From contig JAQMRL010000006.1 of assembly GCA_035578175.1 (NCBI GenBank), positions 66,324,001 to 66,388,000 on the forward strand: a DNA stretch of 64,000 bases. Reading direction: 5' to 3'. This document shows positions 8,674-64,000 of this stretch, piece after piece. The stretch is from Catonia carolina. Lineage: Eukaryota; Arthropoda; Insecta; Hemiptera; Achilidae. The notes below the pieces were generated by a model. That model saw only the letters and a list, made by a program, of their open reading frames with translations. It made no database searches and had not been told where the DNA came from. The position numbers and the translations under genes are program-made. Position 1 is the first letter of the stretch; each line of letters starts with the position of its first letter.

Positions 8674-8916
8674 AATGGAGAAATCTTTAAGATCTGTTCG
8701 GGTGGTATGTGAAGAAATTGCAACAGAAATGCCTGCATGGTATGCGGCGTTTGCAGAAGAAGGAAAAATTACACGGCAGCAAAGTTAACAAGTTTAACCT
8801 AAACAGCAAAATATGCAGCAAATTAGACTAAAACAGCAAGAAACCGAAATTATAAACCACACTGACAACAAAATGGATGGTTTGGTAGCAAAGCTAGTAG
8901 GATTTAAAGAGCGTGT
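8674..8916 (+). pseudogene. Decayed ORF, possibly a retroelement Gag N-terminus
   Basis: An ATG-initiated frame reads about 35 residues (including PAWYAAFAEEGKITRQQ), hits two close stop codons, then continues in the same frame with Gln-rich, coiled-coil-like sequence. The composition is reminiscent of retroelement Gag N-termini, but I recognise no domain. Treat it as an unidentified relic. Confidence 0.25.
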
Positions 8917-47068: not shown

Positions 47069-48391
47069 AATGATTTATCATAACAGAAAAGCGGAAAAGA
47101 ACATTATTACGTTCCATACTACGCTAGAATAATCCAGAAAAGAAAAAAACAAAAGATATGACTTATTGAACACAAAAATAGAATAACTAGTAAAGAAATA
47201 ACTAAATAAAATGAACAAGGTTGCTGTGAGGATATAATAGAATAAAACTCATTGTAGACAACAATAGCTGCCTTTCGGACAGAACTGCACCCGTCAAAAG
47301 CGACATTGTGGTCATTGCCATGTTATACCTAACATTCGTATTTCATTCTGAATCAAGCATCTACATCTAAACAATTCAACGTTTACTATCTTTGATGGTC
47401 ATTATAACCAACTCCAAAGAAGAGAATTATAATTCATATTTCAATAAAAAGAATATTCAATAATTGTTAACATAGTACGTTTTAAAGAATACCAGTTCTA
47501 AAAACTCAACCTTTGTAAATTTTTTGTACTATTCAGTTTCAAGAACAAATTCCATTAACATATTCTTCGCTACACCATCGTAGTGTACGTAAGAAACTTT
47601 TAATTAGCATAATTAGCGTATATGATATACCCATCGTAAAGTAATCTACATGATAAAAAATATATACGTAAACGTTGTTCGAATGAATAGAGAGAATAAC
47701 AACGGTATTTCACAATTTTTACGCTGTATTACAAGTAATAAAATATAGTTAATTTTTTTTGGCATGAACTTAATAACCGGTCATCTGCCAAGCTAGGTTT
47801 CTCATATCTTTAAATAAACAGTTTCAAAAGGAAAAACTATTCTCAGATATTATATCTTTCAACTCACTATCTGATTGAAGGCCTGTTGAAATTGCCATTC
47901 AAATAATTCAATAACCTCAATTATAAAATAAAAATTTCAAAAATTCTTAAAGAGAATCAATATATTATAAAAAAATTGTTACAAGGTTAACGAGGCTTCT
48001 AAATAGACATTGACGGAGCAATAATGGACGAATGGTCGGCTTTTCTGTCTTTCTTACATAAGGTACGATTATTTACACCCTTGAGACAAAAAAATGAAAA
48101 CAATGACAATAATGTAAATGTTTTCAGTGGTCTATTTTTGCAGTTCATGTAACAAACCGATGTATTAAGCATGCAAATTTATTTTGGTAGTCTTGAAAAC
48201 AGTCGCTATTGAAATCCCAGCCTGTAAAGATATCATCCAAAATGATTTATAAGAAGAGTGACAAAAACGTTCTTTTACACCCGCCAGAACTTTAAAGGGT
48301 ATCACTGATGGCCAAAACTTAGCTTTTCGTTCTTTTACTCTTCATGACTCACGAACAGACTTATGACTGTATCCTTATTCGAAAGAGTAGA
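47069..48391 (+). repeat. Large repeat copy C (flank of the adintovirus-like element)
   Basis: It is direct-orientation homologous to repeat A from AATGATTTAT to GAAAGAGTAGA. It is cut on the left by the I-type LINE and on the right by the adintovirus-like element. The right cut is sharp: copy A continues AATTAATTGAG where here AAGTAGGTATTT follows. Confidence 0.72.
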
Positions 48392-48414
48392 AGTAGGTAT
48401 TTACAAGCCTCAAT

Positions 48415-48640
48415 GCAGCCAAACTCATTAGTATTCATAAAAGAAGCCTATAGTAGCCTATAGTGGCCTAAACATTCGAACATGTTTAGGCCATTATAGG
48501 CCATTACCCGAATGCAGCCAAAACTCATTAGCATAATTGTGGCCTATGCAAGGTAGATAAGTCTGTTACCTGAAGGCAGCCAAACTCATTACTATTCATA
48601 AACGAAGCCTATGTTGAAGCCTATAGTGGCCTAAACACAA
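48415..48640. repeat. Left terminal repeats and hairpin of the element
   Basis: The block GCAGCCAAACTCATTA recurs at 48415, 48514 (with an extra A) and 48576. A hairpin with 19-bp arms and one mismatch (48456-48474 and 48483-48501, 8-base loop) lies between. Similar GCCTATAGTGGCCTAAACA sequence occurs again near 48620-48640. The position fits a terminal inverted repeat, to be confirmed at the unseen right end. Confidence 0.65.
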
Positions 48641-48846
48641 GTTCGTTTGTTTAGATAATAATATTCAATCTTGGAACCATCAGTATACATAAATCAATGT
48701 CATTTCACAAAAACAAGTCATTAATTACTCGGACCTCTCTGTTCTGTAGCCCCAAGTGAAATGCCATTGAGACTCACTGCAGCGTTCTAAAATATGGTGT
48801 GGATGTGTAACAATTTTTTACCCCCTCCACTTCTCAATGTAGTAGT

Positions 48847-49003
48847 CAAGTTAAACCTGTTTCTTAAATGTCAAGGTGAACTTGTATTACTTATACATAA
48901 TTCAAGTTTAACCTGTTTCTTAAATGTTAAGGTGAACTAGTATTACTTATACATAATACATGTTTATCCTGTTTCTTAAATGTCAAGGTGTACTAGTATT
49001 GTT
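48847..49003. repeat. 59-bp tandem repeat before PolB
   Basis: About 2.7 copies of a unit containing CCTGTTTCTTAAATGT.AAG and ATTACTTATACATAAT. The third unit supplies the first ATG of the longest PolB frame, so that ATG is probably not the real start. Confidence 0.75.
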
Positions 49004-49048
49004 GTAGTAATAGTTGAATCGAATGACTACACTCAACTATACAATAAG

Positions 49049-49069
49049 TATAAAAAACGTATAAATAAA
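49049..49069 (+). promoter_or_regulatory. TATA boxes of the PolB gene
   Basis: Two TATA elements, TATAAAAAACG (49049) and TATAAATAAAG (49060), lie 46-66 bases upstream of the ATG at 49115. This position favours 49115 over 48980 as the translation start. Confidence 0.5.
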
Positions 49070-49114
49070 GGAAACACATCTCTAAAGAATCATTTCTTGT
49101 GTATTCATGTAACA

Positions 49115-52100
49115 ATGTTTATTCCCAATGCCGAAGTTCTTCTCGCTCTTGAAGGTCGAGTCATTTCTTTGCGGTACACCTTCACTGATCAAGATGTCTG
49201 TGATCTATTGGTTTTCTTCGCTGATATGAAACCGAGCGTTATAGATGATCTGGTCTACTATGGCGTTCAATTAGCAAGTAACATTAAGTGGTATATTGCG
49301 GTGCACGTTGAAATGGAGAAAGTTGTTTACCATGAGGAGGGAGCGGAACCAACAACTATTGTTCAGACAGCTGTTTTTCACGGTAAGACTAGACAGTTAA
49401 TTAATGTTGAAGTCAACATCCCTGAAATGGACCAACAATACGAAGATGCGATTCAAAAAATTCATTGTAGTATTGAGTCTTATACATCTAGAGGCAGTGG
49501 CTGGAGAGTAAAGAGAATTGTAATGTGCGACATACACATTGTACAATATTGTCCACTCTACGGAGCCGGATCTTATTTACCAACCCCAAAAAAGATTCTA
49601 GACCGCCAAGCTGTTATAAACATTAAAAATGACAATGATAGCATGTGTTTTGTTTGGTCAATTCTAGAGTATATTTACCAACAACCAAACCGTCCCAAAA
49701 AAGTAGGTTGGTACAAAAGATATTTAAATTATCTAAACCTTGACGGTATCAGTTTTCCGGTTAAACTAATAGACATACCTAAATTCGAACTCATAAATCC
49801 CAATATTTCAGTTAACGTTCTCAGTTATGAATCTGACACTGACATATTTTATCCAGTTTACGTGACAAAATACAGAAACCGCCAACATGTAATACACTTA
49901 CTTCTCTTACCCGGTCCAACACGTGACTTATATCACTACTGCCTAATAAACACAAAAACAGACATCCGTACCGGTCATCAATACAACGGTCTTTCACGCT
50001 TATTAAATCGATCTCAAACAAATTGTCATCAAACAGTTTATTACTGTAACTTTTGTTATCATAGATTTTACACCAAAACAAACCGCGACAAACACATGTT
50101 AACCTGTCAAGAGTTTGGGTTACAACGCACAATAATGCCTGATCCCACTGACCCTGTTAAATCTGTAATGAAATTTAGAGAGTTTCGTAAAACTCTTAAA
50201 GTCCCTTTCACTATATACGCTGACCTGGAATCATTCATCACGCCTCTACATACCTCACACCCACGTCAAGTAGACGAAAACGGTCGCTCAGTAGCCTTCA
50301 ATCATCCCACTCATAAACATATTGCAAGCGGCTACTCTTACCTAATTGTTGATGAAGACGGTAATATATTCCGCGGACCCGTCACATACAGAGCTCAAAA
50401 CGATAATGATAACGTTGTTGAAAAAATGTTGGAACAGTTAATCAATGTTGGCAAAGAACTTGATTACAAGTTAAAAAATTGCATTCCTTTAAACATGACA
50501 CCTGACGATTACAGAAAATTCGACACTAGCGCACTCTGTATGCTATGTAGTGAACCATTTTCATCACCCTCTGATTACAAGGTCAGACATCACTCACACA
50601 CTACAGGTAGGTTTCTTGGAGCCGCTCACAATTCATGTAATTTCAAGGCCCCCTACGTCAATCACATCCCAGTTTTTTTTCACAATCTTCGCGGCTACGA
50701 CAGTCATCATATTGTTCATGCATTAGGTAAATTCAAAGATGTAAAGTTGTCATGCATTGCCAACTCATCTGAAAAATTCATGTCTCTCCAAGTGAACAAT
50801 TTACGGTTCCTAGACTCTTATCAGTTCCTAGACGACTCACTAGACACACTCGTGGAAAATTTAAAAAACCATTGTGTTGATGCATCAACCACATTTAAAC
50901 GTTTATCAACCCATTACCAAGACACCAACAAACGTGACTTACTGCTTCGAAAAGGTGTTTATTGTTACGAGTACATGAATGGTGTAAATCGCTTCCATGA
51001 AACTCAATTACCCCCTCAAGATGCATTCTTCAGCTCTCTTACACGTTCATCTATTAACGATGCTGATTACCACCATGCACATAATGTTTGGAACTCTTGT
51101 AACATACAGAATATGGGTGAGTATCATGACCTGTATCTGGAATGTGACACTATTCTTCTTGCAGACGTTTTTGAAAACTTCCGGACCCTTTCAATGCAGC
51201 ATTACAACTTAGACCCTTGCCATTTCTACTCTGCTCCCAACATGTCATGGTCAGCCATGTTGAAAATGACCAACGTTTCGCTGGAACTTTTAACTGACAT
51301 AGATATGCATCAGTTCATCGAAAGAGGCGTTCGTGGGGGAGTGGCTCAAATTCCAAAAAGGTTTGCAACAGCCAACAACAGTTCCTTCCCCGAACAATAC
51401 AATGCAGATGCTCCTACTACATGGATCCAGTACCTCGATTGCGTAAATCTCTACGGTCATGCAATGTCACAACCACTCCCCAGCGGTGATTTCAAGTGGG
51501 TGGATCAAGAAGAAATTCCCAAATTTGACTGGACCACAATCCCCTCGGATTCACCCACAGGTTATATTTTAGAGGTTGATCTAGAATATCCTAAACAACT
51601 ACACGATCATCACCGTGATTACCCGTTGGCTCCGGAGAACAGAGTACCACCGAAACTCTCCCCCTACCTTAAAAAACATTCAAAGCAGCTTAGCAAGCAA
51701 CCCAAACTTCTTACCACATTGTATGACAAAGAAAAGTATGTGGTCCATTATCGTACACTACAGCTCTATCTTTCACTAGGTCTGCGTTTAAAAAAAGTCC
51801 ACCGCGTGATCCAATTCAAACAGTCTGATTGGCTTTCTCCATACATCGAATTCAACGCGAACCTTCGAAAAAATGCCAGTAATGACTTTGAGTCCCGTTT
51901 CTTCAAGCTTCTAAACAATGCGGTGTATGGTAAATCCCTGGAAAACGTTCGCAAACATACTGATTTCAAACTTGTAAATAATTCAAAAAAACTTGATAAA
52001 TGGATCACCCAACCCCGCATGAAACGGTGGTTCACCTACAATCCAGAAGTTGTGGGTATTGCCCTAAACAAAGCACAAGTTACGCTGAACCGTCCAATCT

Positions 52101-52750
52101 ACATAGGGTTTACTATTCTTGACCTAAGCAAATATATAATGTTCAACTTTCATTACAATTACGCAAAGGCTAGGTACGGTGACAATATTCGCCTTCTCAT
52201 GACTGATACTGATTCTTTAATGTATGAGGTGCAATCAACAAACGTTTACGACGACATGAAAGATCATTTGAGTCTCTTTGATACCTCCAACTTTCCACCA
52301 TCTCACGATTGTTACAGCACAATTAACAAGAAGAAAGTTGGTACTTTTGCTGATGAAACGCATGGAGTACCAATCAAACAGTTTGTCGGGCTCCGTGCCA
52401 AGATGTACAGTTTTGTTACACAAGATGGTGAAAAGCGCGTCGCAAAAGGTGTCAACCGGGTCTGTATCAAAAAAGACTTAATACATCAGTCATACTTGGA
52501 CTGTTTATTACGCAGGAAACTGACTTACACAAAAAGTTCTTCCATTCGAAGCAGATTACATGAAATTTTTACTATAGACGTCAACAAGCTCTCTCTCTCA
52601 CCGTTTGATGACAAACGATACGTATTGGAGGACGGACTAGATACACTACCTTACGGTCATTATTCGCTCGACGAACTCCATTCATGCCCGCCTGCAAAAC
52701 GTGTTCGCACTGATCTTGACGTAGCGGGACCTTCCTCGCGACACGACTAA
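49115..52750 (+). CDS. polB: Protein-primed type B DNA polymerase
   Basis: The frame is open from an ATG at 48980 (1256 codons). I prefer the ATG at 49115 (1211 codons), because the upstream part lies in a tandem repeat and ahead of the TATA boxes. Numbered from 48980: a CxxC...HxxxxC zinc-finger-like motif at about 355-376, exonuclease motif YADLES at about 413, and an HNH-like CxxC...HHSHTTGRFLGAAHNSCN at about 519-553. Also FHNLRGYDSH, YLECDTILLADVFE, polymerase motif A YLDCVNLYG (Asp 820), motif B NNAVYGKS (978-986) and motif C TDTDSL (1076-1078). It would replicate the element from protein-capped ends. It is intact. The family is shared by Mavericks, adintoviruses and linear plasmids. 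Confidence 0.93.
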   Translation: MFIPNAEVLLALEGRVISLRYTFTDQDVCDLLVFFADMKPSVIDDLVYYGVQLASNIKWYIAVHVEMEKVVYHEEGAEPTTIVQTAVFHGKTRQLINVEVNIPEMDQQYEDAIQKIHCSIESYTSRGSGWRVKRIVMCDIHIVQYCPLYGAGSYLPTPKKILDRQAVINIKNDNDSMCFVWSILEYIYQQPNRPKKVGWYKRYLNYLNLDGISFPVKLIDIPKFELINPNISVNVLSYESDTDIFYPVYVTKYRNRQHVIHLLLLPGPTRDLYHYCLINTKTDIRTGHQYNGLSRLLNRSQTNCHQTVYYCNFCYHRFYTKTNRDKHMLTCQEFGLQRTIMPDPTDPVKSVMKFREFRKTLKVPFTIYADLESFITPLHTSHPRQVDENGRSVAFNHPTHKHIASGYSYLIVDEDGNIFRGPVTYRAQNDNDNVVEKMLEQLINVGKELDYKLKNCIPLNMTPDDYRKFDTSALCMLCSEPFSSPSDYKVRHHSHTTGRFLGAAHNSCNFKAPYVNHIPVFFHNLRGYDSHHIVHALGKFKDVKLSCIANSSEKFMSLQVNNLRFLDSYQFLDDSLDTLVENLKNHCVDASTTFKRLSTHYQDTNKRDLLLRKGVYCYEYMNGVNRFHETQLPPQDAFFSSLTRSSINDADYHHAHNVWNSCNIQNMGEYHDLYLECDTILLADVFENFRTLSMQHYNLDPCHFYSAPNMSWSAMLKMTNVSLELLTDIDMHQFIERGVRGGVAQIPKRFATANNSSFPEQYNADAPTTWIQYLDCVNLYGHAMSQPLPSGDFKWVDQEEIPKFDWTTIPSDSPTGYILEVDLEYPKQLHDHHRDYPLAPENRVPPKLSPYLKKHSKQLSKQPKLLTTLYDKEKYVVHYRTLQLYLSLGLRLKKVHRVIQFKQSDWLSPYIEFNANLRKNASNDFESRFFKLLNNAVYGKSLENVRKHTDFKLVNNSKKLDKWITQPRMKRWFTYNPEVVGIALNKAQVTLNRPIYIGFTILDLSKYIMFNFHYNYAKARYGDNIRLLMTDTDSLMYEVQSTNVYDDMKDHLSLFDTSNFPPSHDCYSTINKKKVGTFADETHGVPIKQFVGLRAKMYSFVTQDGEKRVAKGVNRVCIKKDLIHQSYLDCLLRRKLTYTKSSSIRSRLHEIFTIDVNKLSLSPFDDKRYVLEDGLDTLPYGHYSLDELHSCPPAKRVRTDLDVAGPSSRHD

Positions 52751-52787
52751 CTGTTACGCAACAGTCAGTTGACCTTGACCATAAGGG

Positions 52788-52817
52788 TATAAAAAGCGTA
52801 GTTTTCTATCGAATCAG
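52788..52817 (+). promoter_or_regulatory. Core promoter of the 105-residue ORF
   Basis: TATAAAAAG at 52788-52796 and an arthropod-type initiator TCAG at 52814-52817 are 28 bases apart, just before ATG 52836. This spacing recurs before other genes of the element. Confidence 0.6.
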
Positions 52818-52835
52818 CTCACTTCATTTTACATT

Positions 52836-53153
52836 ATGACGCAGTTAAGGACTGACATTTTAATGCAACGTTTCAACACGATTGCAGAAACTTCCTATCC
52901 CACCATTAAAAAGGTGCAAGAACTTTTACCCTCCATGCCGTACCGCATTGAGACTATGGAAAAATTAGTCACGCGATATGGTCCTACTTTATATTTAACG
53001 TTGTCCACCCCTATTGATACTGTAGCGTTCGGTGTTTATTTACCAGCTGTCTATTATAACCGGTTTACAGAGACTGAAGTGGCCGTTTTGGCTACATCCG
53101 GGTTGTGTCTCGTTAAAAACGATACAAACGATTTGAGACTGTCTAAAAATTAA
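52836..53153 (+). CDS. Small protein, possibly OB-fold DNA-binding
   Basis: 105 residues, unrecognised with certainty. The core PYRIETMEKLVTRYGPTLYL followed by a strand-rich segment and VAFGVYLPAVYYNRF resembles small OB-fold-like proteins encoded by arthropod mobile elements. In those, a V.TKYG strand is followed by L..R or V.LP. Its place between PolB and integrase would suit a single-strand binding or replication role. It has its own TATA box and initiator 20-48 bases upstream, so it is probably a separate transcript. The function is inference. Confidence 0.6.
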   Translation: MTQLRTDILMQRFNTIAETSYPTIKKVQELLPSMPYRIETMEKLVTRYGPTLYLTLSTPIDTVAFGVYLPAVYYNRFTETEVAVLATSGLCLVKNDTNDLRLSKN

Positions 53154-53166
53154 CCCAAATACAGAC

Positions 53167-53181
53167 TATATATAAAAAAAG
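53167..53181 (+). promoter_or_regulatory. TATA box of the integrase gene
   Basis: TATATATAAAAAAAG lies about 40 bases before ATG 53207 and 14 bases after the previous stop codon. Confidence 0.5.
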
Positions 53182-53206
53182 AATCTCATCATACTTTTTT
53201 AGAAAC

Positions 53207-54136
53207 ATGACTGACATTCGTTCTGGTATTGCAAACGAACTGCATAAGCAGGCGCGTAAAAATTTTCCTAGGAGAACAATAACGTTAAAAGGTAGACACG
53301 ATCTGTACCAGGCCGATCTTGTGGAAATGGGTAAATATGCAAAATTAAATAAAAATTTCAATTACATTCTAACCATTATTAATTGTTTTACCAAAGTCGC
53401 AGACGCAATTCCGATAAAAAGAAAAACGGGTGTAATGGTAGCAAACGCATTAAGACCGTTTTTAAAATCTCACCCGATGCGTAATTTACAAACGGATGAC
53501 GGTAAAGAATTTTTCAATGTTCATGTACAAAATCTAATAAAACAATTCGGAATCAATCATTACGCTACGTTTTCTGAGAAGAAGGCTGCCATAGTTGAAC
53601 GGTTCAATAGAACATTAAAAACACAAATGTGGCGTGTGTTCACCAAGCAGGGAACTTATAACTGGTTGAAAATATTACCCGGAATTATTGTCAAATACAA
53701 CAACACTTTTCACAGATCTATCGGAATGAAACCGAATCAAGTTAACCTTCATAATGAAAAACAAGTCATGGATCGGTTAAACATTGTACCTAAACGATGG
53801 GTGGGTAAGATAAGAAAGGAATTTAAAGTCGGTGATAAAGTACGCATTAGTAAACATAAGATGGTTTTTACTAAGGGATACTTACCTAACTGGACTAATG
53901 AGGTGTTCACCGTATACAAAATACAACCGACTTTACCCATAACGTACCTTCTCGCCGACAGTAGGGGAGAAATACTAAAAGGTGGCTTCTATGGTTACGA
54001 GTTGATGAAAACGAAATACGACGATGTATTCTTGGTGGAAAAGGTGTTACGACGTAAAGGTAACATGATATTAGTCAGATGGTTAGGATACGATACATCA
54101 CACGACTCGTGGGTAAAAAAAGGTGATATTTTATAA
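53207..54136 (+). CDS. Retroviral-type integrase with chromodomain
   Basis: 309 residues. The rve catalytic core has Asp37 (QADLVEM), Asp97 (QTDDGKEF) and Glu131 (AAIVERFNRT), the DDE triad. The core is followed by an SH3-like segment (FKVGDKVRISKHK) and a C-terminal chromodomain-like motif (LVEKVLRRKGNMILVRWLGY...SWV), which may steer insertion to certain chromatin. This is the Maverick/adintovirus integrase, which joins the element's ends to host DNA and makes a 5-6 bp target duplication. The frame is intact. No N-terminal HHCC zinc domain is visible. Confidence 0.93.
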   Translation: MTDIRSGIANELHKQARKNFPRRTITLKGRHDLYQADLVEMGKYAKLNKNFNYILTIINCFTKVADAIPIKRKTGVMVANALRPFLKSHPMRNLQTDDGKEFFNVHVQNLIKQFGINHYATFSEKKAAIVERFNRTLKTQMWRVFTKQGTYNWLKILPGIIVKYNNTFHRSIGMKPNQVNLHNEKQVMDRLNIVPKRWVGKIRKEFKVGDKVRISKHKMVFTKGYLPNWTNEVFTVYKIQPTLPITYLLADSRGEILKGGFYGYELMKTKYDDVFLVEKVLRRKGNMILVRWLGYDTSHDSWVKKGDIL

Positions 54137-54232
54137 ATGCGTGTTTTCACTTTCATTGTCATACAAGACCACTAAAAGGTTATATATTGCACGTACTTAG
54201 ATACGAACGCTTTGTTCCATTCCCGACTCAAA

Positions 54233-54931
54233 ATGGAGTGCATTCCACAAAAAGAAAAACTAGATTTGATTAATTTTGATAAGTACACCGAGCCTATGAA
54301 ATCTAAACAAAAAAACCGACATAGTAAACTCCTTCCCAATACGATTAGATGTATAATATGTGGACCCTCAAATTGTGGAAAGACGAACCTACTCTTCAAT
54401 CTCATCTTTGCTGAAAACGGAGTGAAGTTCAAAAATATATACCTGTTTTCTAAATCGTTAAACCAACCAAAATATCAGTTTTTATCACAGGTAATGAAGG
54501 GTATTCCAAAAGTTGGTTATTTCACATTTAATGAAAACGAAAGTGTTTGCCATCCGAGTAAAGCCAGACCTAATTCTCTGATGATATTTGATGACATTGC
54601 GTGTGAAAAACATGATAATATACGAAACTATTTTACAATGGGACGTCACAACCATTTGGATACATTTTATTTAGGTCAATCATATAGCAGGATCCCCAAA
54701 CATTTGATCAGAGACAATACCAATTTGATTGTTGTATTTAAACAAGACGATTTAAATTTACAACATATTCATTCGGATCATGTAAACTCAGACCTATCGT
54801 TTAATAAATTTAAAGAAATCTGCAAAATGGCGTGGAAAAATGATGGTGGCAATTTTCTCGTAGTTGACAAAGACAGTGACATCAATGAAGGACGGTTTCG
54901 CGTAGGTTTTGATAAGTTTATTCGGGTATAA
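54233..54931 (+). CDS. A32-like DNA packaging ATPase
   Basis: 232 residues from ATG 54233; the frame is open slightly further upstream but has no earlier ATG. Walker A GPSNCGKT at 44-51, Walker B LMIFDD at 116-121, then TMGRHNHLDTFYLGQSYSRI, a sensor region typical of the FtsK-HerA/A32 class. In this group it pumps the genome into the capsid. A TATATATT element precedes it (54181). Its stop codon overlaps the TATA box of the next gene, a sign of extreme compaction. Confidence 0.92.
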   Translation: MECIPQKEKLDLINFDKYTEPMKSKQKNRHSKLLPNTIRCIICGPSNCGKTNLLFNLIFAENGVKFKNIYLFSKSLNQPKYQFLSQVMKGIPKVGYFTFNENESVCHPSKARPNSLMIFDDIACEKHDNIRNYFTMGRHNHLDTFYLGQSYSRIPKHLIRDNTNLIVVFKQDDLNLQHIHSDHVNSDLSFNKFKEICKMAWKNDGGNFLVVDKDSDINEGRFRVGFDKFIRV

Positions 54932-54935
54932 ATAG
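54927..54935 (+). promoter_or_regulatory. TATA box overlapping the ATPase stop codon
   Basis: TATAAATAG; the TAA at 54929-54931 is the ATPase stop. The next ATG follows at 54973. Confidence 0.6.
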
Positions 54936-54972
54936 AAGCGATCTATTGGCTTTTCGGGTTTTTTTTTGTAAA

Positions 54973-55896
54973 ATGGATAAGAAACAGATGTCGATCGCGT
55001 TACAAATGCAACGCTTAAGGGACAATATTAAACGTAAACATAGATCGTTTACTACAGGCGTGATTGAATCGGATGAGCTTTTGGAGAAACGATTGAAACC
55101 GATTGTTGACCCGTTGAAAGAGTTTATCAAGAAATCTGACAACATGCATCCAAAAAAAGAAGAGGTGGTGGATAGTGAGGAGGGGAAACAGCCCTGGGAT
55201 GACACCGAGTTCCCATTCAAACGGTTTAATCCGCACCAAACCAGTACACCTACTTCACATAAAAATAAATCAAGGACGAACCAATCGTTACTGATCGATT
55301 CTTTGAGCGATGAAAACCCTACAAAACATTATCTTCACCTGCTCATCACAGACAAGAATAATACGATGGATCATGTTTACGGTGTATACTTGAAAGACGA
55401 CAAGTTGATGATTGGTGATAAACAAGTCAATTTCGGTCATATGAAATTGATAATAGGCAAAGAAAATTATGAGCTTACGGCTGGTCTGCACTCACTCATC
55501 TTTGAGAGGGAACCAAGCGCCTCGTATACAACTGATGACCTTGACATATATCGCAAAATATTATTGCAAACAAACGCCTATCGTCAAGGTTACGACCCGA
55601 AGCGACAAATAAACTCTAATCGTGGTTACAAATATATGCATATAATCAAACCGCTTTTTAACAAAACCACACCTCTTGTTCCTGCTGAAGGAAGTGGGAT
55701 GGTCATGACAAGTGATCGTGTTCAGTATGTGCATTGGGATGATGTAAACGAATTGTGTGACCGGTTGCGGTTGTTGTTAGCCTCCGAAAGGGCGGGAAAT
55801 TTTGGACATACAAATGAAATCCAATCTATTATAGAGGAGCTACGAGAAAGCGGTGTTATAAAAGGCGGTGCGTTGAAACGAAATCGACACTATTAA
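54973..55896 (+). CDS. Conserved adintovirus/Maverick protein of unknown role
   Basis: 307 residues from ATG 54973. A basic, coiled N-terminus ([13 protein letters not shown]) is followed by a disordered acidic/Ser-Thr region (about 60-110). The conserved C-terminal domain contains [65 protein letters not shown] and a final helix [15 protein letters not shown] know this signature from many insect Maverick-like loci and unannotated insect proteins, sometimes listed as a DUF. No function is established that I can state. Its place between ATPase and fibre suggests a virion or assembly role. Confidence 0.8.
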
Positions 55897-55903
55897 AAGA
55901 AAA

Positions 55904-57754
55904 ATGAGTATCGACAAGTTTGGTCACTCGAATAGATGGCGGGATGGCGGAAGCGGTGGGGGTGATCGATATCATCATATTCTAAGCCAGCCGGGGGGGT
56001 TTGCTTTAAAACTGACTAAAGATGGGGACTTAGACGCGGCGGGAAAACGATTATCAAATTTAAATTTTCCAATATCTAATACGGACGCCGTACGTAAAAT
56101 GGATTGTATCACACTCGATCCAAACTTGACATCCACCGTCGATATGAAAAAAAGAAAAATTATAAACGTAGCAGATCCTGAATCAGATAGTGACGCTATC
56201 AATTTGCGTGCCATGAAACGAGCCTGTCTAACAACAGATCTACAACTCGACGATCAAGTTTACAACGCAAACTTCATGAGAGTAAAAAATGTTGGAGAAC
56301 CTCTTGAAAACAACGATGTAGTGTCTGTGCAGTACCTTTCAAAAAACTATGCCACTAAGGCAGACATGCGATCGACACTAGATGTTGCATCAGCAGCAAC
56401 AGCTGCAGTAACAGCAAGTCTTGATACAACAGCCGCGGCCACAACAGGTGCAGTCGCAACAGATGTTGAGGGAAATCCAGTGTTCAACAATAGACGTTTG
56501 ACGCAGATAGCTGCACCAGTTGATGATCAAGACGCAGTCACCTTGAAATATTATAAAGAACATACTGCTTTAGATGTTGACTCGCAGGCGAAACAAATAG
56601 ACATGCATAAATACGTGATAAAAAATATAGGCTTACCTGACGACGACGATGATGCTGTAACACTAGGCTTTCTAAACTGGAAATATGCTAAACAGACGGC
56701 TCTAGAAAAGGCGATCTTGATTAATGAAGAAAATAAAATAGCGGACGTGAGAAAGTGCAGACTCATCAATGTGGCGACTGGGACGGGTAAAACAGACGCG
56801 GTTAATGTTAATCAAGTCAGGGACATTTGTAACGAAGTGTTTGAAACATCTGTGCAAATGGCGATTTATTTGCAAAAACAACAACGTGGTGAAAGAACCG
56901 CTTCAGGTGATGTGAACGAATTTAAAAAGCTCACTCAGTCGTTAAAAGACCGACTGCAAGAGTTTAGTGAAACTTTTTCGGTTCCAGGATTTCCAGAGAG
57001 GGGTGAAAGGGGTGAGAAAGGTGAAAGGGGTGAACCCGGGGCTAAAGGCGAACCTGGTAGGCCGGGACCGAGAGGTGCACCTGGTGAAGGTATAAAATTT
57101 AATTCAAAACTAGATGCATATGACATGCAAGGAAAACGCATTATTAACGTTCCACATCCAATAGGACCGACAGACGCCGTAAACAGAGATTACGTTACGC
57201 AAGCCTTAACAAACTTTTTGGACGTTGTAGAGAGATCGCAACGGCGTAAAATCAGAAGTATACATGGACCGGAGGCGCTTCCATTGACGGCCGGAGAAGT
57301 GGTGGACGACCCGAAAATAGATCAAATAGCGAACGATTTTTTGGACACGCTGATAAAAATTATACATCGACATCAACATTACAAGATGGGACCAGAATTT
57401 CTACCTGTAATAGGCCCTCAAGGACCTAAAGGTGATAAAGGCCCCCCTGGTCCGGCTGGTAAAGACGGAAAGACTGGTCCTAAAGGTCTTCCAGGGAAAA
57501 ATGGTGAACAGGGAAGGCCAGGGGAACGAGGACCTCCCGGTGTACAGGGACCCTCAGGTATAGGTTTCACCTTGGACCAAAACGGTGATTACGATATGAA
57601 ATCAAAGAGACTTACAAACGTAGGCGCACCATCGATTGGAAACGATGCAGTAATATTATCTTATTTAAACGATAGACTAAACAGTGGCAGCAATATGAAA
57701 ACTGAACAGCCCACTAGTGGGACTTCATATACTCTTAACATGGATGACATTTGA
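55904..57754 (+). CDS. Collagen-like fibre protein with repeated NV-P-DAV motifs
   Basis: 616 residues starting 7 bases after the previous stop. It has about eight copies of a motif of the form (K/R)(R/K)(L/I)xN(V/L)xxPxxxxDAV...(Y/F)(L/V), for example [20 protein letters not shown] and [16 protein letters not shown]. This motif is common in trimeric phage tail and fibre-like proteins. Two collagen-type Gly-X-Y blocks (about residues 366-392 and 506-555) separate the last copies. An Ala/Thr-rich stretch is at about 163-190. No signal peptide. The architecture suggests an elongated trimeric spike used for attachment. That it is a virion fibre is inference from fold signature and position among structural genes. 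Confidence 0.85.
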
Positions 57755-57797
57755 GATTAAAACATCATTTTTTCCTCAATATAGATGTAAAAAAAGA

Positions 57798-57806
57798 TAT
57801 ATAAGG
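57798..57806 (+). promoter_or_regulatory. TATA box of the PLA2-like gene
   Basis: TATATAAGG, 38 bases before ATG 57836 and 44 after the preceding stop. Confidence 0.55.
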
Positions 57807-57835
57807 ACGAATAAAAACTATAAATATGTGTGAGA

Positions 57836-58417
57836 ATGTTTGTAAAACGTCAGAAGGGAGCAGGACTGCTTGACGCAATCAGCGAGATCGGTGGTAAGAT
57901 ATTGAATCGTACCATCGACTTATTACCGGTAGAACTACATATTCCTGGTTACCAGTACTGTGGACCCGGTACTAAATTACAGGAGCGGTTAAGACGAGGC
58001 GATCAAGGGATAAATAAATTGGATTCAGCGTGTAAAGAACACGATATCGCTTACTCAAAGTATAGTGACAACTCGAATCGGGCAGAGGCTGATAAAGTGT
58101 TGATAGAGCAAGCGTGGAAACGAGCTAAAGCAGGTGACGCAAGTGTAGCAGAGAAAGCGGCTGCGTGGACAGTAACAAACCTTATGAAGCTGAAAACTAA
58201 ATTTGGAGGCAGCTTACGACGACATCGTCGTAAGATGACACGTCGCGGTGTACGCAAACGGAGTCGAAATACCCGTACAGCGTCCGGTCAAGGACTGTAT
58301 TTGAAAAATTACAAAGGACGCGGTGTATACTTGAAAAACTACAAAGGTCGTGGATTGCAGATACGTAAAAAAAAAAAACTTCCACCCGTTGCCACCGCGC
58401 GCGTTAAACGGACATGA
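57836..58417 (+). CDS. PLA2-domain virion protein with basic KGRG-repeat tail
   Basis: 193 residues from ATG 57836. The phospholipase A2 core shows the calcium loop (YCGPGT, 41-46) and the catalytic CKEHD (His69-Asp70), close in style to parvovirus VP1 PLA2 domains. An Arg/Lys-rich region follows, then repeats of LKNYKGRG/VYLKNYKGRG resembling adenovirus core-peptide-like sequence. In known viruses such a domain helps pass through endosomal membranes. The frame ends in a run of 12 A (58367-58378) that overlaps the start of the protease frame. Confidence 0.88.
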   Translation: MFVKRQKGAGLLDAISEIGGKILNRTIDLLPVELHIPGYQYCGPGTKLQERLRRGDQGINKLDSACKEHDIAYSKYSDNSNRAEADKVLIEQAWKRAKAGDASVAEKAAAWTVTNLMKLKTKFGGSLRRHRRKMTRRGVRKRSRNTRTASGQGLYLKNYKGRGVYLKNYKGRGLQIRKKKKLPPVATARVKRT

Positions 58418-58742
58418 ACTATTAAAATATGGCAGCCATGTTCCACATTTTCGAGGTGTTTTCATGTTAAACAGACTACCGTCACGGGTCCGCAAAAATG
58501 AAAGCGGTATAGTAAACTTGGATCAAGACAGTGGACATGGCACGCATTGGGTGTGCTACAAAAAATTTGGCGCCAAAGTTGTATATTATGACAGTTATGG
58601 TAACTTACGACCTCCACCAGAGTTGGTACAATATTGGAAAACAGGTGTGGACGGTCATAATATCACTATACAATTTAACTATAAAAAGGAGCAAAAGAAG
58701 GTGAATTGTGGCCATTTGTGTTTGAAATTTTTACACGCATAA
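58350..58742 (+). CDS. Adenain-like cysteine protease
   Basis: The open frame overlaps the PLA2 frame by 68 bases and has no ATG until 58464. Conserved adenain-like features are GTHWVCYKK (His), YYDSYGNL (Asp) and NCGHLCLKF (Cys nucleophile), in the C5/C48 fold order. Sequence before the ATG (NGHEL, GSHVPHFRGVF) looks like part of the same conserved domain. Either translation starts at a non-ATG codon, or the protein is reached by frameshift on the A run from the PLA2 frame. The enzyme matures capsid proteins. The stop codon shares bases with the next ATG (TAATG at 58740-58744). Confidence 0.85.
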   Translation: MDCRYVKKKNFHPLPPRALNGHELLKYGSHVPHFRGVFMLNRLPSRVRKNESGIVNLDQDSGHGTHWVCYKKFGAKVVYYDSYGNLRPPPELVQYWKTGVDGHNITIQFNYKKEQKKVNCGHLCLKFLHA

Positions 58743-59596
58743 TGTTTTCAATATCTGGACGAGGCTCAATTCTACAATGTGATGTGTTTCCACCCATTGA
58801 GCTCGGCAATGAGTATAACTGGGAGATTGGACTAGTCAATCTATCCACTTACAATACGATTCCCAATGTGGAAACGGACGTCAATGACACTTTTTTTTTT
58901 GGTAGTGTAAACGCCTCTTCCCATCAACTACCCGACGCAGAGGGTACAGTGAAAGTGTCCAACGAGCCACCAGATCTATTCAGTGGTCGAGCAACCAAAG
59001 TCTATTCGGAAGCAGAACAGCAAATATTGGATAAAGATAAAAACAACGCAGGTGTGACGATTGTCATACCCCAGGGTGCGTACGAGTTGGAAGATTTAGA
59101 ATCGTACATAAAAGAGACATGTACGCGATCTAACATCCCTTTGAAATTTCATTTAAAAGCTAACAATAATACTTTACATACAGAAATATTCTGTTCACGT
59201 CCCATAGATTTCACTCACCCAAACAATTTTTCCTCAATGTTAGGGTTTACAGAACGGGTGCTTGAGCCAGATAAATGGCATGTATCTGATAATGAAGTAA
59301 ACATTATAAAAGTTAATATTATTAGAGTGTTATGCAATATTGTGCAAGGTTCGTATGATAACGGCAAAGAAACGCATATTTTACACGAATTTCCGTTGGC
59401 CGTTGACCCCGGTTATAAATTGTTAGAAACACCTACTAATGTAATATATATGCCGGTAAATGTTAAAAGGTTGCAGTCTATTGTTATCCGCCTGGAGGAT
59501 CAAGACGGAAATCTCATAAACTTTGCTAACGAAGTAATCTCGTTGCGTTTACATTTACAACGTTCTAGAAATGGGACTAGTAATTTTTCCACGTAA
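58742..59596 (+). CDS. Penton-like minor capsid protein
   Basis: 284 residues, initiated by the ATG in TAATG, where a termination-reinitiation coupling is possible. It is rich in beta strands with no transmembrane segment, and has the ELGNEYNWEIGLVNLSTYNTIPN opening that I know from Maverick minor capsid (single jelly-roll) proteins (quoted pieces: NEYNWEIGLVNLSTYN). Position before the major capsid gene agrees. It would form the five-fold vertex of the particle. Confidence 0.8.
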   Translation: MFSISGRGSILQCDVFPPIELGNEYNWEIGLVNLSTYNTIPNVETDVNDTFFFGSVNASSHQLPDAEGTVKVSNEPPDLFSGRATKVYSEAEQQILDKDKNNAGVTIVIPQGAYELEDLESYIKETCTRSNIPLKFHLKANNNTLHTEIFCSRPIDFTHPNNFSSMLGFTERVLEPDKWHVSDNEVNIIKVNIIRVLCNIVQGSYDNGKETHILHEFPLAVDPGYKLLETPTNVIYMPVNVKRLQSIVIRLEDQDGNLINFANEVISLRLHLQRSRNGTSNFST

Positions 59597-59599
59597 AAC

Positions 59600-59635
59600 A
59601 TATAAGTATAATAAACACATGAGTTCATATGTCAG
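59600..59635 (+). promoter_or_regulatory. Core promoter of the major capsid gene
   Basis: ATATAAGTATAATAA at about 59600, followed at about 59631 by ATGTCAGTC, an arthropod-type TCAGT initiator, then a leader of about 80 bases to ATG 59715. Confidence 0.55.
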
Positions 59636-59714
59636 TCGGAAACAGTCCGTGAACCGGTTAAAACCACATAACTCACATTTTTTAAAATCTTTAGGCTTCC
59701 GTGTTTAAGTGACA

Positions 59715-60926
59715 ATGGATGTATTGAATGTTGAAGGAAAAGCTGTTTTTAATGATTTAATTACTAGCTGGGAGTATCATACCCACACTCCTTATGCATC
59801 GTCCACGTACCAAAATAATGATGAAATAAGAATTCCAATACATCAACAAGATGTGTTTACATTGCCTAGTGAGAGTTATCTCTACGTGGAAGGTACGTTA
59901 TTGGAAAAAGCCAACACGGTGGGAGCAAACTATAAACTAGTGAACAACGCCGTGGCCTTTCTTTTTGATGAGGTAAGATTCGAAATAAATGGAATAGAGG
60001 TGGACCGAATCAAAAACCCGGGAATCACTTCTACCATTAAAAATTATCTAACGTTAAATGCAAAAGATAACTCGTTAGATAACGCTGGGTGGAATCAATC
60101 GAAAGGTTCAATCGAAGTAAATGCAACAACCGGTAAGTTTACATTCTGTTATCCGTTAAAATTTCTCTTACCTGTCTTTGATGATTATACGAAAATTACA
60201 TTACCTGTCAAACAAGAACTGGTACTCTTACGAGCTCCCAATGATAATGATGCTGTCCTATTACCTGATGGAAAAACAAGTTTTCTATTGACCTTGACAA
60301 AACTTCATTGGAAAATTCCTTACATTCGTGTCAATGATGTTACACGTTTGAACTTGTTAAAACTTGTTGAATCTGACAAACCTGTTCAGATGCCCTTTAG
60401 GAGATGGGAACTCCACGAATACCCCGCGTTCCCACAGACCACGCAACATCTGTGGTCGGTGAAGACTTCTTCACATATGGAAACAGCTAGGTACGTTATT
60501 GTTGCGTTCCATACAAAAATAAAAAGCAATCCAAACGCTAATCCAACTCATTTTACAAGCGATGATAAATCAGTCTCGGTTCGTAACATAAAACTCTTTT
60601 TAAATGATCAATATTTCCCATACGATAATTTTCACGGTGACATGAATCTCTTTTTCGAAGTGTATTCACGGTTCAAATCTTCTTACTTGTGTGACATGAG
60701 TACAGGCCCCTTTCTAAGTCTGTCTGATTTTAAAAAAAACGGTGCAGTATATGTTATCGATTGTTCTAAACAGAATGAAACCATTAAAACGGGTGCTGTA
60801 GACTTAAGGTTGGAGATTGAAACGGAAAAAACGGTTCCCGCTGAAACCGCTGCTTACTGTTTGATTGTGTATGACGCCATAGTAGAATACAGACCATTGA
60901 CGGGAACAGTACGCAAACTTATGTAA
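59715..60926 (+). CDS. Major capsid protein, double jelly-roll type
   Basis: 403 residues from ATG 59715; a GTG two codons upstream is ignored. The N-terminal half has ITSWEYHTHTPYASST, NNDEIRIPIHQQDVFTLPS, SYLYVEGTL and FLFDEVRFEINGIEVDR, with KNPGITSTIKNYLTL after it. These are the hallmark segments of the capsid proteins of arthropod Mavericks/adintoviruses. Two jelly-roll domains are expected, about 1-190 and 200-403. It is intact. It would build hexon-like trimeric capsomers, processed with the protease and assembled with the penton. Confidence 0.92.
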   Translation: MDVLNVEGKAVFNDLITSWEYHTHTPYASSTYQNNDEIRIPIHQQDVFTLPSESYLYVEGTLLEKANTVGANYKLVNNAVAFLFDEVRFEINGIEVDRIKNPGITSTIKNYLTLNAKDNSLDNAGWNQSKGSIEVNATTGKFTFCYPLKFLLPVFDDYTKITLPVKQELVLLRAPNDNDAVLLPDGKTSFLLTLTKLHWKIPYIRVNDVTRLNLLKLVESDKPVQMPFRRWELHEYPAFPQTTQHLWSVKTSSHMETARYVIVAFHTKIKSNPNANPTHFTSDDKSVSVRNIKLFLNDQYFPYDNFHGDMNLFFEVYSRFKSSYLCDMSTGPFLSLSDFKKNGAVYVIDCSKQNETIKTGAVDLRLEIETEKTVPAETAAYCLIVYDAIVEYRPLTGTVRKLM

Positions 60927-60934
60927 TGACAAGT

Positions 60935-60968
60935 TATAAATTACGCTACCTTATAGAAAATACTTCAG
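60935..60968 (+). promoter_or_regulatory. Core promoter of the PC4-like gene
   Basis: TATAAATTA at 60935-60943 with TTCAG initiator at about 60964-60968, then ATG 60984. The TATA box begins 8 bases after the capsid stop codon. Confidence 0.55.
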
Positions 60969-60983
60969 TTATAACCAAGCAGG

Positions 60984-61583
60984 ATGGGATCACGGATTAC
61001 AACTTCAGAAGATGCAGAGGATAAAGAATTACTCCTACCACCATCACCAAAAGGTATGTTTTTCATATTTTTACCTCTTACATATACGCTAAACAAAAAA
61101 TTTGATAAACACGTAACGGTAGGCGTTGTTCATGATGAGCAAAACTTAAATACGGGTATCGTTTTTACATCGTCCCATAAACGGGTGACTTTATCATATC
61201 ATTTATGGAAATTACTGGTGCAGAACCGTGATTACATACAGCTTGCACTGGACAAGGGGACAAAAATTACGTGTCACTTGAAAGACATTGCAGATGGGGA
61301 GAGCTCATATGCAATAGTTGAGGTTAGACAAATTTTTGGTAAATTTTATGTACAGATTATAGACGTAAAAAAGAACAAAATTTCATTAACACCAACAGAA
61401 TGGTTGTACTTTGATAAATACATTCCGAACCTGTCGAATCATGTTCGTGAATTATGGTTCGATGAGCTAAAAATAGTGGAAGAGATAGAGGGGGAACGCA
61501 ATGTGACGTCACCCGGCTGGTGGTTGGATAGATTGCGTGATGAGATCAAAGTATATAATGCGATTTACACTTTGGAAGACTAG
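60984..61583 (+). CDS. PC4-like (p15-like) DNA-binding protein, possibly tandem
   Basis: 199 residues. Two segments have the order strand-strand-(V/I)xLxxxxWxxL typical of the PC4 coactivator/ssDNA-binding fold: residues about 52-85 (KRVTLSYHLWKLL) and 110-145 (GKFYVQIIDVKKNKISLTPTEWLYF). Such whirly-like proteins bind single-stranded DNA and modulate transcription. It would suit late transcription or replication of the element. The match rests on a short motif, so the assignment is tentative. It is followed 23 bases later by another small gene. Confidence 0.6.
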   Translation: MGSRITTSEDAEDKELLLPPSPKGMFFIFLPLTYTLNKKFDKHVTVGVVHDEQNLNTGIVFTSSHKRVTLSYHLWKLLVQNRDYIQLALDKGTKITCHLKDIADGESSYAIVEVRQIFGKFYVQIIDVKKNKISLTPTEWLYFDKYIPNLSNHVRELWFDELKIVEEIEGERNVTSPGWWLDRLRDEIKVYNAIYTLED

Positions 61584-61606
61584 TCAGTGGATTATCAACT
61601 ATCATT

Positions 61607-62197
61607 ATGTACGATTCGATAATCGAAGATTTAACGCTTCTGATCGGGGATGTGGTTGTTCCATTCTCTGCAAAGTGTAAGTTGAAACATAGTTATGTCA
61701 TGGTTGCTGATTTCTCTCTTCACAATTTCTTGGAACCGGCTGATGTTAAAATTGAAATTAAATTTAAAAATAAAACACACACCTACATTTGTAAATTTGA
61801 ATGTGGTGATTTTAAAAAAATATCTCTCGTTGGTTTGGATAAAATTACATTCGTTGGTTTCACTCGAGACCCACAGGATGGAAAGATACAAAAATTTATG
61901 ATAGATGACCATGTATGCAATAAACGATCGTCGGTAGCAGAAGGTGACAAGATGGTTCTGTCTTTGTCTGTTTTTGATACTATAGACAGACGAGAACCAG
62001 TATTTGACGTAACAGACGGACCTAGTTCTACCACAAGAACTGATTCGTGTAAACGGACCTTAGTAGGATTTGAAAGCGAAGAAAAATCTATCGAGTCGTA
62101 CAAATATTGTACAAGATATTTAAAAGATAATCTGCTTTTATCTGTGTATATAATTTTTTATATTGGTAGCACTGAACATTATATATTGCAAAAATAA
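61607..62197 (+). CDS. Unknown protein of the adintovirus-type element
   Basis: 196 residues; ATG 61607 lies 23 bases after the PC4-like stop. It is beta-rich (LTLLIGDVVVPFSAK, KFKNKTHTYICKF) with a hydrophobic C-terminus (SVYIIFYIGS), and no domain I can name. The acidic/polar middle is Ser/Thr-rich. It might be part of a paralogous pair with the previous gene by position, but I see no sequence match. Confidence 0.6.
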   Translation: MYDSIIEDLTLLIGDVVVPFSAKCKLKHSYVMVADFSLHNFLEPADVKIEIKFKNKTHTYICKFECGDFKKISLVGLDKITFVGFTRDPQDGKIQKFMIDDHVCNKRSSVAEGDKMVLSLSVFDTIDRREPVFDVTDGPSSTTRTDSCKRTLVGFESEEKSIESYKYCTRYLKDNLLLSVYIIFYIGSTEHYILQK

Positions 62198-62239
62198 ATA
62201 AATTGCTTCAACCGAATATTTTGTAATCATTGTAGCAAG

Positions 62240-63016
62240 ATGCATTCATCTAGTTGTATTTGTGAATTTCAAGCTTTTTATGATAATAATAGTGACTTTG
62301 TAATTAAAGAATTTGTTGTGTTGGACATTTCTAATCGATCTTTTATACATTTACATTTTAGACCACCTTACGAGCGTAGTGAACTGAATTCAGTTTACCA
62401 AAAAACAACACTTTGGTTAGAAACTCGTTTTCATAGTTTGCTTTGGGAAGATGGTGTTATTCCGTACAGTTTAACAACAATAAAAAGTATTCTCACCCAG
62501 TATAAAATTATTTATACGAAAGGTGTTGAAAAACAAAACTTTATAAAATCACAAGTGGGAGAAAGTAGTAAAGTTGTGAATTTAGATGATTATAAACATA
62601 TGATACCAAAATTAACAAATAAAAATAAAAAATATTGTCCTTTGAATTCAGGCGCGCATAAAAAAGATGATAAAATGCGGTGTGCTGTCTCAAAAGCTAT
62701 TCATCTTGCAAAGTGGTTATGTTGTGATTTTAAAAGAGAACACGATAGGTTAAATTCCTTTGTAGATAGAACTGATACAGTCGTTCAAGAAATTGCAAAA
62801 CGAGGGTTTTATTTTGACAAAAACAGCAATACAATACGTTGTAATTGGTGTAAAAAGTATTTTTATAACATTAACACTTTACAGGTGGAACATGATATGG
62901 TTTCACCATCTTGTGAGTCGTTGATTGGTTATGTCAATAATGTGCCACTTTTTTTAGAGAAATTTGTACCTCGTCATGTAAACATTAGACATCAATTGTA
63001 CGAAGAAGAGGCTTAA
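62240..63016 (+). CDS. BIR-domain (IAP-like) protein fused to an unnamed N-terminal domain
   Basis: 258 residues. Residues about 165-230 form a BIR-like zinc module: RLNSF, a GFYF segment, C201-x2-C204, H218 and C225 (H-x6-C). The C-to-H spacing is 13 instead of the usual 16, so it is a diverged BIR. No RING follows. The N-terminal 150 residues (FVVLDISN, TLWLETRFHSLLWEDG, IIYTKGVEKQNF, VVNLDDYKH, then a Cys-containing block) match a pattern I know from unnamed arthropod/viral proteins, perhaps RNase H- or DEDD-like. BIR proteins in insects and insect DNA viruses block cell death. That role here is inference. Confidence 0.65.
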   Translation: MHSSSCICEFQAFYDNNSDFVIKEFVVLDISNRSFIHLHFRPPYERSELNSVYQKTTLWLETRFHSLLWEDGVIPYSLTTIKSILTQYKIIYTKGVEKQNFIKSQVGESSKVVNLDDYKHMIPKLTNKNKKYCPLNSGAHKKDDKMRCAVSKAIHLAKWLCCDFKREHDRLNSFVDRTDTVVQEIAKRGFYFDKNSNTIRCNWCKKYFYNINTLQVEHDMVSPSCESLIGYVNNVPLFLEKFVPRHVNIRHQLYEEEA

Positions 63017-63487
63017 ACAGTCTAAAAACACAAGCTAAAGAACATAAAAAAAATGAAATTTCTTTAGTGTACCTCATAAAAATGTTGACATAAGCTCTGG
63101 AGGCTAGCTACCACCGTAAACGGACATCTTTGGACACTCTCTTTTTATAAGGGCGCTGATGGATAAGGACCGCCAAAGACAAAGTTACGGACACTCTTAT
63201 GTCACTAAAAATGAGTGTACGTGTGTATGTACTACTGGTGTTTAAGTTTAAGTAAAAATTATAGTGGCTAGCTATGATAAAATAAATAAAAACTTGGTTT
63301 TTGTTTTTTCTGAATGAATGTGTTAAGCGAAAAATTAAAAAAAAACAAATAAATATGATAGGTTGTGTCTTTTTTGATGAAAACAATAGTTTCTTTAGTA
63401 CAAAGTTTAAAAATGTAAAAAAATAATTAAAAAATTAAAAAAAACACAAAATGTCTAGGTTTAGAATGTGGTAGGGGAAATGTGTAG
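63017..63487. other. Non-coding gap inside the adintovirus-type element
   Basis: A-rich near 63400-63445. A direct echo GGACACTCT (about 63132 and 63191) and no supported gene. Confidence 0.4.
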
Positions 63488-63516
63488 TATAAATTGCAGA
63501 ACGCGAGTGGTCACTG
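63488..63516 (+). promoter_or_regulatory. Core promoter of the terminal ORF
   Basis: TATAAATTG at 63488-63496 and TCACTG at 63511-63516, 10-36 bases before ATG 63524. This is the same layout as at the other genes of the element. Confidence 0.55.
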
Positions 63517-63523
63517 TATCACA

Positions 63524-63826
63524 ATGTCGTCAGACCATGAAGAGAAGTATCATTTAGAGAGCTGCGATGGAGTTAGGCACTGGGTGTTTTGTCTTAGTCC
63601 TGGTCCATTTGAAAGATCGCAAGAGGTTTGTTGACCCTGTCCAGGACCAGATTGTGAGATGAGGAAGAGAAATGATCATATTGAACAGTATCATGTAGAA
63701 TACTGTAACGGATCAACTCACACATACAATATTTGTACTGCGTTAGACACTTGTAACGTAGAACCGTATGTTAGACAGTGTGAAGGAGATTGTTGGTGGT
63801 TAAGGAATAAAAATAAGGTTAATTGA
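63524..63826 (+). CDS. Small two-repeat Cys-rich ORF with in-frame TGA
   Basis: From ATG 63524 the frame runs 101 codons to TGA 63824-63826, interrupted once by TGA at codon 37 (63632-63634). Both sides keep the same frame. Codons about 7-24 (EKYHLESCDGVRHWVFC) and about 54-70 (EQYHVEYCNGSTHTYNIC) are similar, so it is an internal duplication. Many Cys and His residues, including Cys before and after the TGA. No signal peptide. Its own TATA box supports expression. The TGA may be a mutation, an intron edge or a recoded codon. Unrecognised protein. Confidence 0.45.
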
Positions 63827-64000
63827 GAAGGTGTGACTGAAAAAAAAAACAAAAAAAAATGAAAAAAAATATAAAAAAGAATTTAGGGTAAGCCTGAGTG
63901 GTTTGTAGGCCTCTGTCACAAGCAAACGTGACCTCAGCTTAAGTCTTGAGCTGGGGGGGAAGGAGTTGTTTATCATCAAACACTCTGGGTCCACTCATTA
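63827..64000. other. Distal, non-coding end of the window
   Basis: A-rich run (about 63840-63880), then unique sequence. No inverted copy of the left terminus is visible, so the right end of the element is beyond the window. Confidence 0.5.

Follow-up and report, generated by a model that had tools for sequence, protein, structure and literature searches.

A multicopy Polinton/adintovirus-type element and palindromic polymerase elements in the genome of the hemipteran Catonia carolina

According to the portions of PMC11071296 used here, three features define adintoviruses: a family B DNA polymerase (PolB) bearing an OTU domain, a hexon that BLASTp can recognise against adintovirus hexons, and an integrase whose C-terminus carries a chromodomain. 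Most of the mammal-associated ones also have homologs of anti-apoptotic genes. Parts of two further sources describe terminal-protein and vOTU domains in the polinton PolB (PMC11071308) and Polinton integrases that lack an N-terminal C2H2 zinc finger (PMC2836005). We analysed a stretch of 64,000 nucleotides from Catonia carolina (GCA_035578175.1, contig JAQMRL010000006.1), referred to as the window (C101:66324001-66388000, in a genome of 1.47 Gb). It contains the left part of an element that we regard, with a probability of roughly 0.9, as a complete integrated copy of a Polinton/adintovirus-type DNA virus, 22,535 bp long and recently multiplied in this genome.

The element extends from position 48392 to position 70926 of the window frame, with 6,926 bp beyond the right edge of the window. 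An earlier sequence-only reading had let it end at 64000, which is simply the window edge, and had predicted a reciprocal right terminus and a 6-bp duplication of AGTAGA at both ends. The end it gave has to be moved, while both predictions were borne out. The right terminus lies at position 1926 of L022, the fetched right flank (L022:1 is window frame 69001), and is followed by AGTAGA, which also precedes the left end. Positions 48392-48484 recur inverted at L022:1835-1926 (93 bp, 90%), and the termini read AGTAGG...CCTACT. A paralogous empty site is found nearby, where a diverged inverted copy of the flank (L022:3083-3489, 81–86%) has a single AGTAGA across the site. Homology ends at the left boundary, 48391/48392, in nine of the ten other copies whose ends were fetched. 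A left end at the 56-bp repeats (48846) was ruled out because homology to the other copies continues to 48392 and the duplication fits there.

The target duplication of Polintons/Mavericks is 6 bp long. Terminal inverted repeats together with such a duplication are present here, and the duplication is exact in eight of ten copies, i.e., the window copy and seven of the nine others kept. The repeats vary from 93 bp at 90% in the window copy to 221 bp at 98% in two other copies. The element is also found in many near-identical copies. Its capsid DNA gave 40 matches at 99–100% (best 40 of 168 candidates scored), and 36 of 37 matches to its polymerase protein are free of stops (best 37 of 1141 candidates scored), the window's own match being included in both counts. 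As these many near-identical copies carry 6-bp duplications of their own, the element has been mobile recently, in agreement with the earlier description of it as young or still mobile. The near-identity, seen in a single assembly of one genome, might also arise from contamination or misassembly, if an exogenous virus or a single repeat had been misplaced many times. We consider this very improbable, given that the insertions differ in their flanks and in their exact 6-bp duplications and that a paralogous empty site adjoins the window copy.

Thirteen plus-strand open reading frames (ORFs) of at least 80 amino acids (aa) are found between 48980 and 63016. The features of the element within the window are as follows.

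48386 to 48391, no strand: target-site duplication AGTAGA, left copy (right copy at L022:1927-1932, outside the window)
48392 to 48484, plus strand: left terminal inverted repeat, 93 bp, 90% to the right end, begins AGTAGG
48846 to 49013, plus strand: 56-bp tandem repeats, with related inverted copies on the right side (window frame about 64132-64758)
48980 to 52750, plus strand: PolB frame, 1256 aa, true start may be further in (alignment, motifs by eye)
52836 to 53153, plus strand: 105-aa protein, paralogous to a 133-aa ORF past the window (E 8e-9)
53207 to 54136, plus strand: rve-type DDE integrase, 309 aa, weak C-terminal chromodomain match (Pfam, DDE-type motifs by eye)
54212 to 54931, plus strand: packaging ATPase, Pox_A32 family (Pfam 33.4 bits, cut-off 22.8)
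54946 to 55896, plus strand: 316-aa protein, no Pfam family at E<=0.1
55904 to 57754, plus strand: fibre with T7-fibre-like N-terminal match, collagen repeats and YadA-stalk-like part (Pfam)
57830 to 58417, plus strand: phospholipase A2 (PLA2) domain, basic tail (Pfam 57.8 bits, motifs by eye)
58350 to 58742, plus strand: adenain-like cysteine protease frame, first 38 residues without ATG (motif by eye only)
58706 to 59596, plus strand: penton, the minor capsid protein (structure model, Foldseek)
59709 to 60926, plus strand: double-jelly-roll major capsid protein (Pfam 304.6 bits)
60984 to 61583, plus strand: 199-aa ORF, no family
61607 to 62197, plus strand: 196-aa ORF, no family
62240 to 63016, plus strand: 258-aa protein with predicted DnaQ-type exonuclease fold and BIR (inhibitor of apoptosis) domain
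63017 to 64000, plus strand: start of the right part, the element continuing to window frame 70926

The gene set proposed from the letters of the window thus holds for the polymerase, integrase, packaging ATPase, fibre, PLA2, penton and capsid, all of them encoded on the same strand in frames uninterrupted by stops. The protease is a candidate by motif only, Pfam giving no match to that frame. The core genes are open in the window copy, as are nearly all of the scored polymerase matches.

Of the genes typical of a Polinton/Maverick, those for the polymerase, integrase, packaging ATPase and capsid proteins could be recognised, and an adenain/Ulp1-type cysteine protease is a candidate. No PolB family was reported by Pfam for the window polymerase at E<=0.1. 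We assign it to PolB because it is 50% identical, over 1,212 alignment columns, to a frame in the same genome that matches PF03175 at 70.7 bits, and because PolB motifs can be recognised by eye. Nor did Pfam, by profile search alone, report an OTU family for it. The rve match of the integrase (E 1.9e-7) begins at residue 32 and scores 31.7 bits, slightly below the curated cut-off of 32.6. Its chromodomain match, the C-terminal feature shared with adintoviruses, is weak (residues 280-307 of 309, E 0.0044, 17.3 bits against a cut-off of 25.1). The packaging ATPase exceeds its cut-off. Both capsid types are represented, the double-jelly-roll protein by its Pfam match and the single-jelly-roll protein by the fold of the penton. 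The penton model was built from 29 sequences (pLDDT 84.9), and its best Foldseek match is the mavirus penton (E 1.7e-8, TM-score about 0.41), followed by adenovirus penton bases, the TM-scores of these structural matches being modest at about 0.4.

In one proposed life cycle the polymerase would copy the linear genome by protein priming, and the DDE integrase would insert the resulting DNA at sites cut with a 6-bp stagger. An adenovirus-like particle able to carry the element between cells might be assembled from its capsid, penton, fibre and PLA2 proteins. The DnaQ-fold/BIR protein and a weakly F-box-like protein may oppose host defence or cell death. That the element can form particles if expressed, as the earlier reading proposed, is a prediction from its genes.

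The element may instead be a transposon only, which spreads within germline nuclei and retains its capsid genes while no particle leaves the cell. Every copy seen is integrated, which suits this alternative, as do the viral contigs and the protease frame taken up below; we still think it unlikely, though it deserves to be taken seriously. The capsid gene has stayed open with few amino-acid changes: among 12 copies (the window's and 11 others) the capsid codons have 15 polymorphic sites, five of them nonsynonymous, and no stops. A nonsynonymous share of 5/15 compares with about 78% expected without selection (binomial P 2e-4), sites being treated as independent, which in related copies they are not. 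Relatives of the capsid and penton are moreover present in other sources. Most are unnamed, and the few names among the 120 capsid relatives listed are uncharacterised insect proteins. A 64% capsid relative and a 63% penton relative are each placed on a contig of 14,752 bp, perhaps the same one.

The copies are also mosaic, a pattern that mixing of lineages within a single replicating pool would be expected to give. Left-end types and capsid types were seen in all four combinations (in the C122, C69, C58 at 116 Mb, and C1 copies), the left-end types being separated by just two substitutions. The C133 copy at 41.5 Mb has 40–42 substitutions and 56–57 gap columns at its left end relative to the others, and only 1–3 substitutions in the capsid relative to six of them. 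Because this copy is diverged at the left and near-identical in the capsid, we conclude that element lineages recombine. Gene conversion could also produce such mosaics, and an old family homogenised by conversion among genomic copies, rather than by recent transposition, would explain both the shuffled types and one copy with unmatched flanks. We find this improbable: the duplications are still exact in 8/10 copies, the window's included, which would be unexpected after long decay. Three of the copies, those of C122, C133 (minus) and C58 (60.6 Mb), are free of substitutions in the 3,007 bases compared (1,789 + 1,218 bp); a single gap column sets the C133 copy apart from the other two. The copy with unmatched 6-bp flanks, L012/L027, is possibly a recombinant of two insertions.

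Several points weigh against a complete and recently multiplied virus. The copies scored were the best candidates, so intact ones are over-represented, and one of the 37 polymerase matches has two stops. The tenth fetched copy, a variant without a left match, was dropped; among the nine kept, one has mismatched flanks (ATGGTA / ACCAGT) and the right end of another lies outside the fetched stretch. The terminal repeats of the window copy are short and only 90% alike, several copies diverge or carry different sequence to the right of about 65.6 kb, and no ATG occurs in the protease frame upstream of residue 39. Finally, scans of viral contigs for relatives yielded none.

Further features lie in the right part of the element. 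The BIR match of the 258-aa protein is weak by Pfam, and a literature search on BIR or inhibitor-of-apoptosis proteins in Polintons returned nothing on the point. This protein has one short relative (P0124, 151 aa), which aligns to its first part only. Past the window are an ORF with a weak F-box-like match (E 0.012, below cut-off), the 133-aa ORF and two repeat arrays (161 bp x 9.3 and 486 bp x 2.8). The paralogous small proteins at 52836-53153 and L001:2628-3029 stand at opposite sides of the element, and the second is also related to an ORF of the palindromes described below.

Related elements that are palindromic occur in the same genome. Among 74 PF03175 matches, 22 form 11 plus-then-minus pairs that are 7–12 kb apart. 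Two of these palindromes were fetched as two stretches each, L043/L044 (C133:13772000-13791999) and L045/L046 (C1:397932000-397950999). In the first, which measures 19,425 bp by its ends, the arms match each other in inverted orientation at 99.97% over 9,512 bp, and in the second at 99.3% over 9,452 bp. The likeness between the two elements is 97.2%. A 1198-aa polymerase frame, 50% identical to the window polymerase, and a relative of the 133-aa ORF (35–36%) are present in all four arms, and a BIR match (41.6 bits) was obtained for one ORF of L043. The polymerases of L043 and L045 differ by six synonymous and three nonsynonymous changes, a small sample that gives P 0.004 against no selection.

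The outer ends of the palindromes, AGTAGT...ACTACT, resemble the termini of the window element. Exact 6-bp duplications flank all eight elements with both ends read; in the remaining three of the 11 pairs, two right ends were not found in the fetched stretches and one pair was left unfetched. An assembly artefact is disfavoured, as the outer flanks differ between elements and these duplications are exact in 8/8. The outer arm ends are 99.8–100% alike in seven palindromes (358–900 bp compared). Evidence counter to such likeness comes from the palindrome of C69 at 89.6 Mb (82.9%, with 52 gap positions in 362) and from that of C101 at 1.84 Mb, which has no arm match in the fetched stretches, and in the C53 palindrome the comparison was limited to 44 bp. 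Identity of the outer ends between palindromes varies from 83% to 100%, so that certain elements resemble each other as closely as their own arms do.

When 14 proteins of the window element were used as tblastn queries against L043-L046, the capsid, penton and ATPase had no listed match at E<=1, the integrase reached E 0.43 at best, and the protease matches were at E 0.47 or worse. Pfam found no rve among seven of the nine L043 ORFs of at least 100 aa. When the palindrome polymerase DNA was used as a query, 24 of 40 scored matches (best 40 of 191 candidates) were at least 97% identical and comprised 10 pairs and 4 solitary copies, the other 16 being at 79%. No such inverted pair was present among the 37 scored matches of the window-type polymerase. 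The 2.5 kb that follow the polymerase in two solitary copies and two relatives contain no match to the window integrase, and the lack of a neighbouring integrase may therefore mark the whole lineage and not the palindromes specifically.

We tentatively suggest, at somewhat less than even odds, that the palindromes (about 19 kb, with two arms of about 9.5 kb that each carry a polymerase) are satellites of Polinton-type viruses, their arms being re-made from one another in each replication round while full-length viruses like that of the window supply the integrase, and perhaps the capsid, in trans. Such re-making could run through a snapped-back single strand, which would keep the arms alike while the elements diverge. 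A literature search on palindromic or non-autonomous Polintons, a weak test, returned nothing on the point, and the main text of PMC11071296 contains neither "palindrom" nor "inverted repeat". The palindromes are more unusual than the window element, itself a further member of the known Polinton/adintovirus group.

Outside the element, seven ORFs of the window were tested, and every family assigned among them is a transposon one. The minus-strand frame at 3817-6930 has DUF1759 and a weak aspartyl protease match and is presumably of BEL/Pao type, and the plus-strand frame at 19600-22302, with endonuclease and reverse transcriptase, belongs to a non-long-terminal-repeat retrotransposon. The right flank contains a further inverted repeat (L022:6025-6212 and 8797-8987, 97%).

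With a young, gene-complete element in many copies one can ask if such viruses continue to form particles and move between hosts, and its protein with an exonuclease-type fold and a BIR domain is a concrete candidate for a factor that interferes with host defence. The palindromes, if correctly interpreted, would mean that self-complementary satellites can be maintained by protein-primed DNA replication in a large genome of eukaryotic type.

The best name for the window element is a Polinton/Maverick of adintovirus type, where "Polinton/Maverick" is firmer than "adintovirus" because an OTU-like domain and a match to the reference hexon are not established. With adintoviruses it shares PolB, an rve integrase with C-terminal chromodomain (weak here) and adenovirus-like hexon and penton; of their three defining features, the chromodomain integrase is the one recognised here, and that weakly (PMC11071296). 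The BIR/DnaQ-fold protein and the long right-hand repeat arrays are not among the adintovirus features described in the portions of that source used here (PMC11071296). With Polintons/Mavericks it has in common PolB, DDE integrase, packaging ATPase and jelly-roll capsid genes, whereas its terminal repeats are short and variable (PMC6431247; PMC2836005). The start of its rve match at residue 32 fits the zinc-finger-less Polinton integrases (PMC2836005). Its penton model is most similar to that of the mavirus virophage, from which it differs in being integrated in many copies in a 1.47-Gb genome. The palindromes, finally, resemble Galileo/Foldback-type transposons in their long terminal inverted repeats but differ from them in arms that carry a DNA polymerase gene, in their AGTAGT...ACTACT ends and in their 6-bp duplications (PMC3573991).
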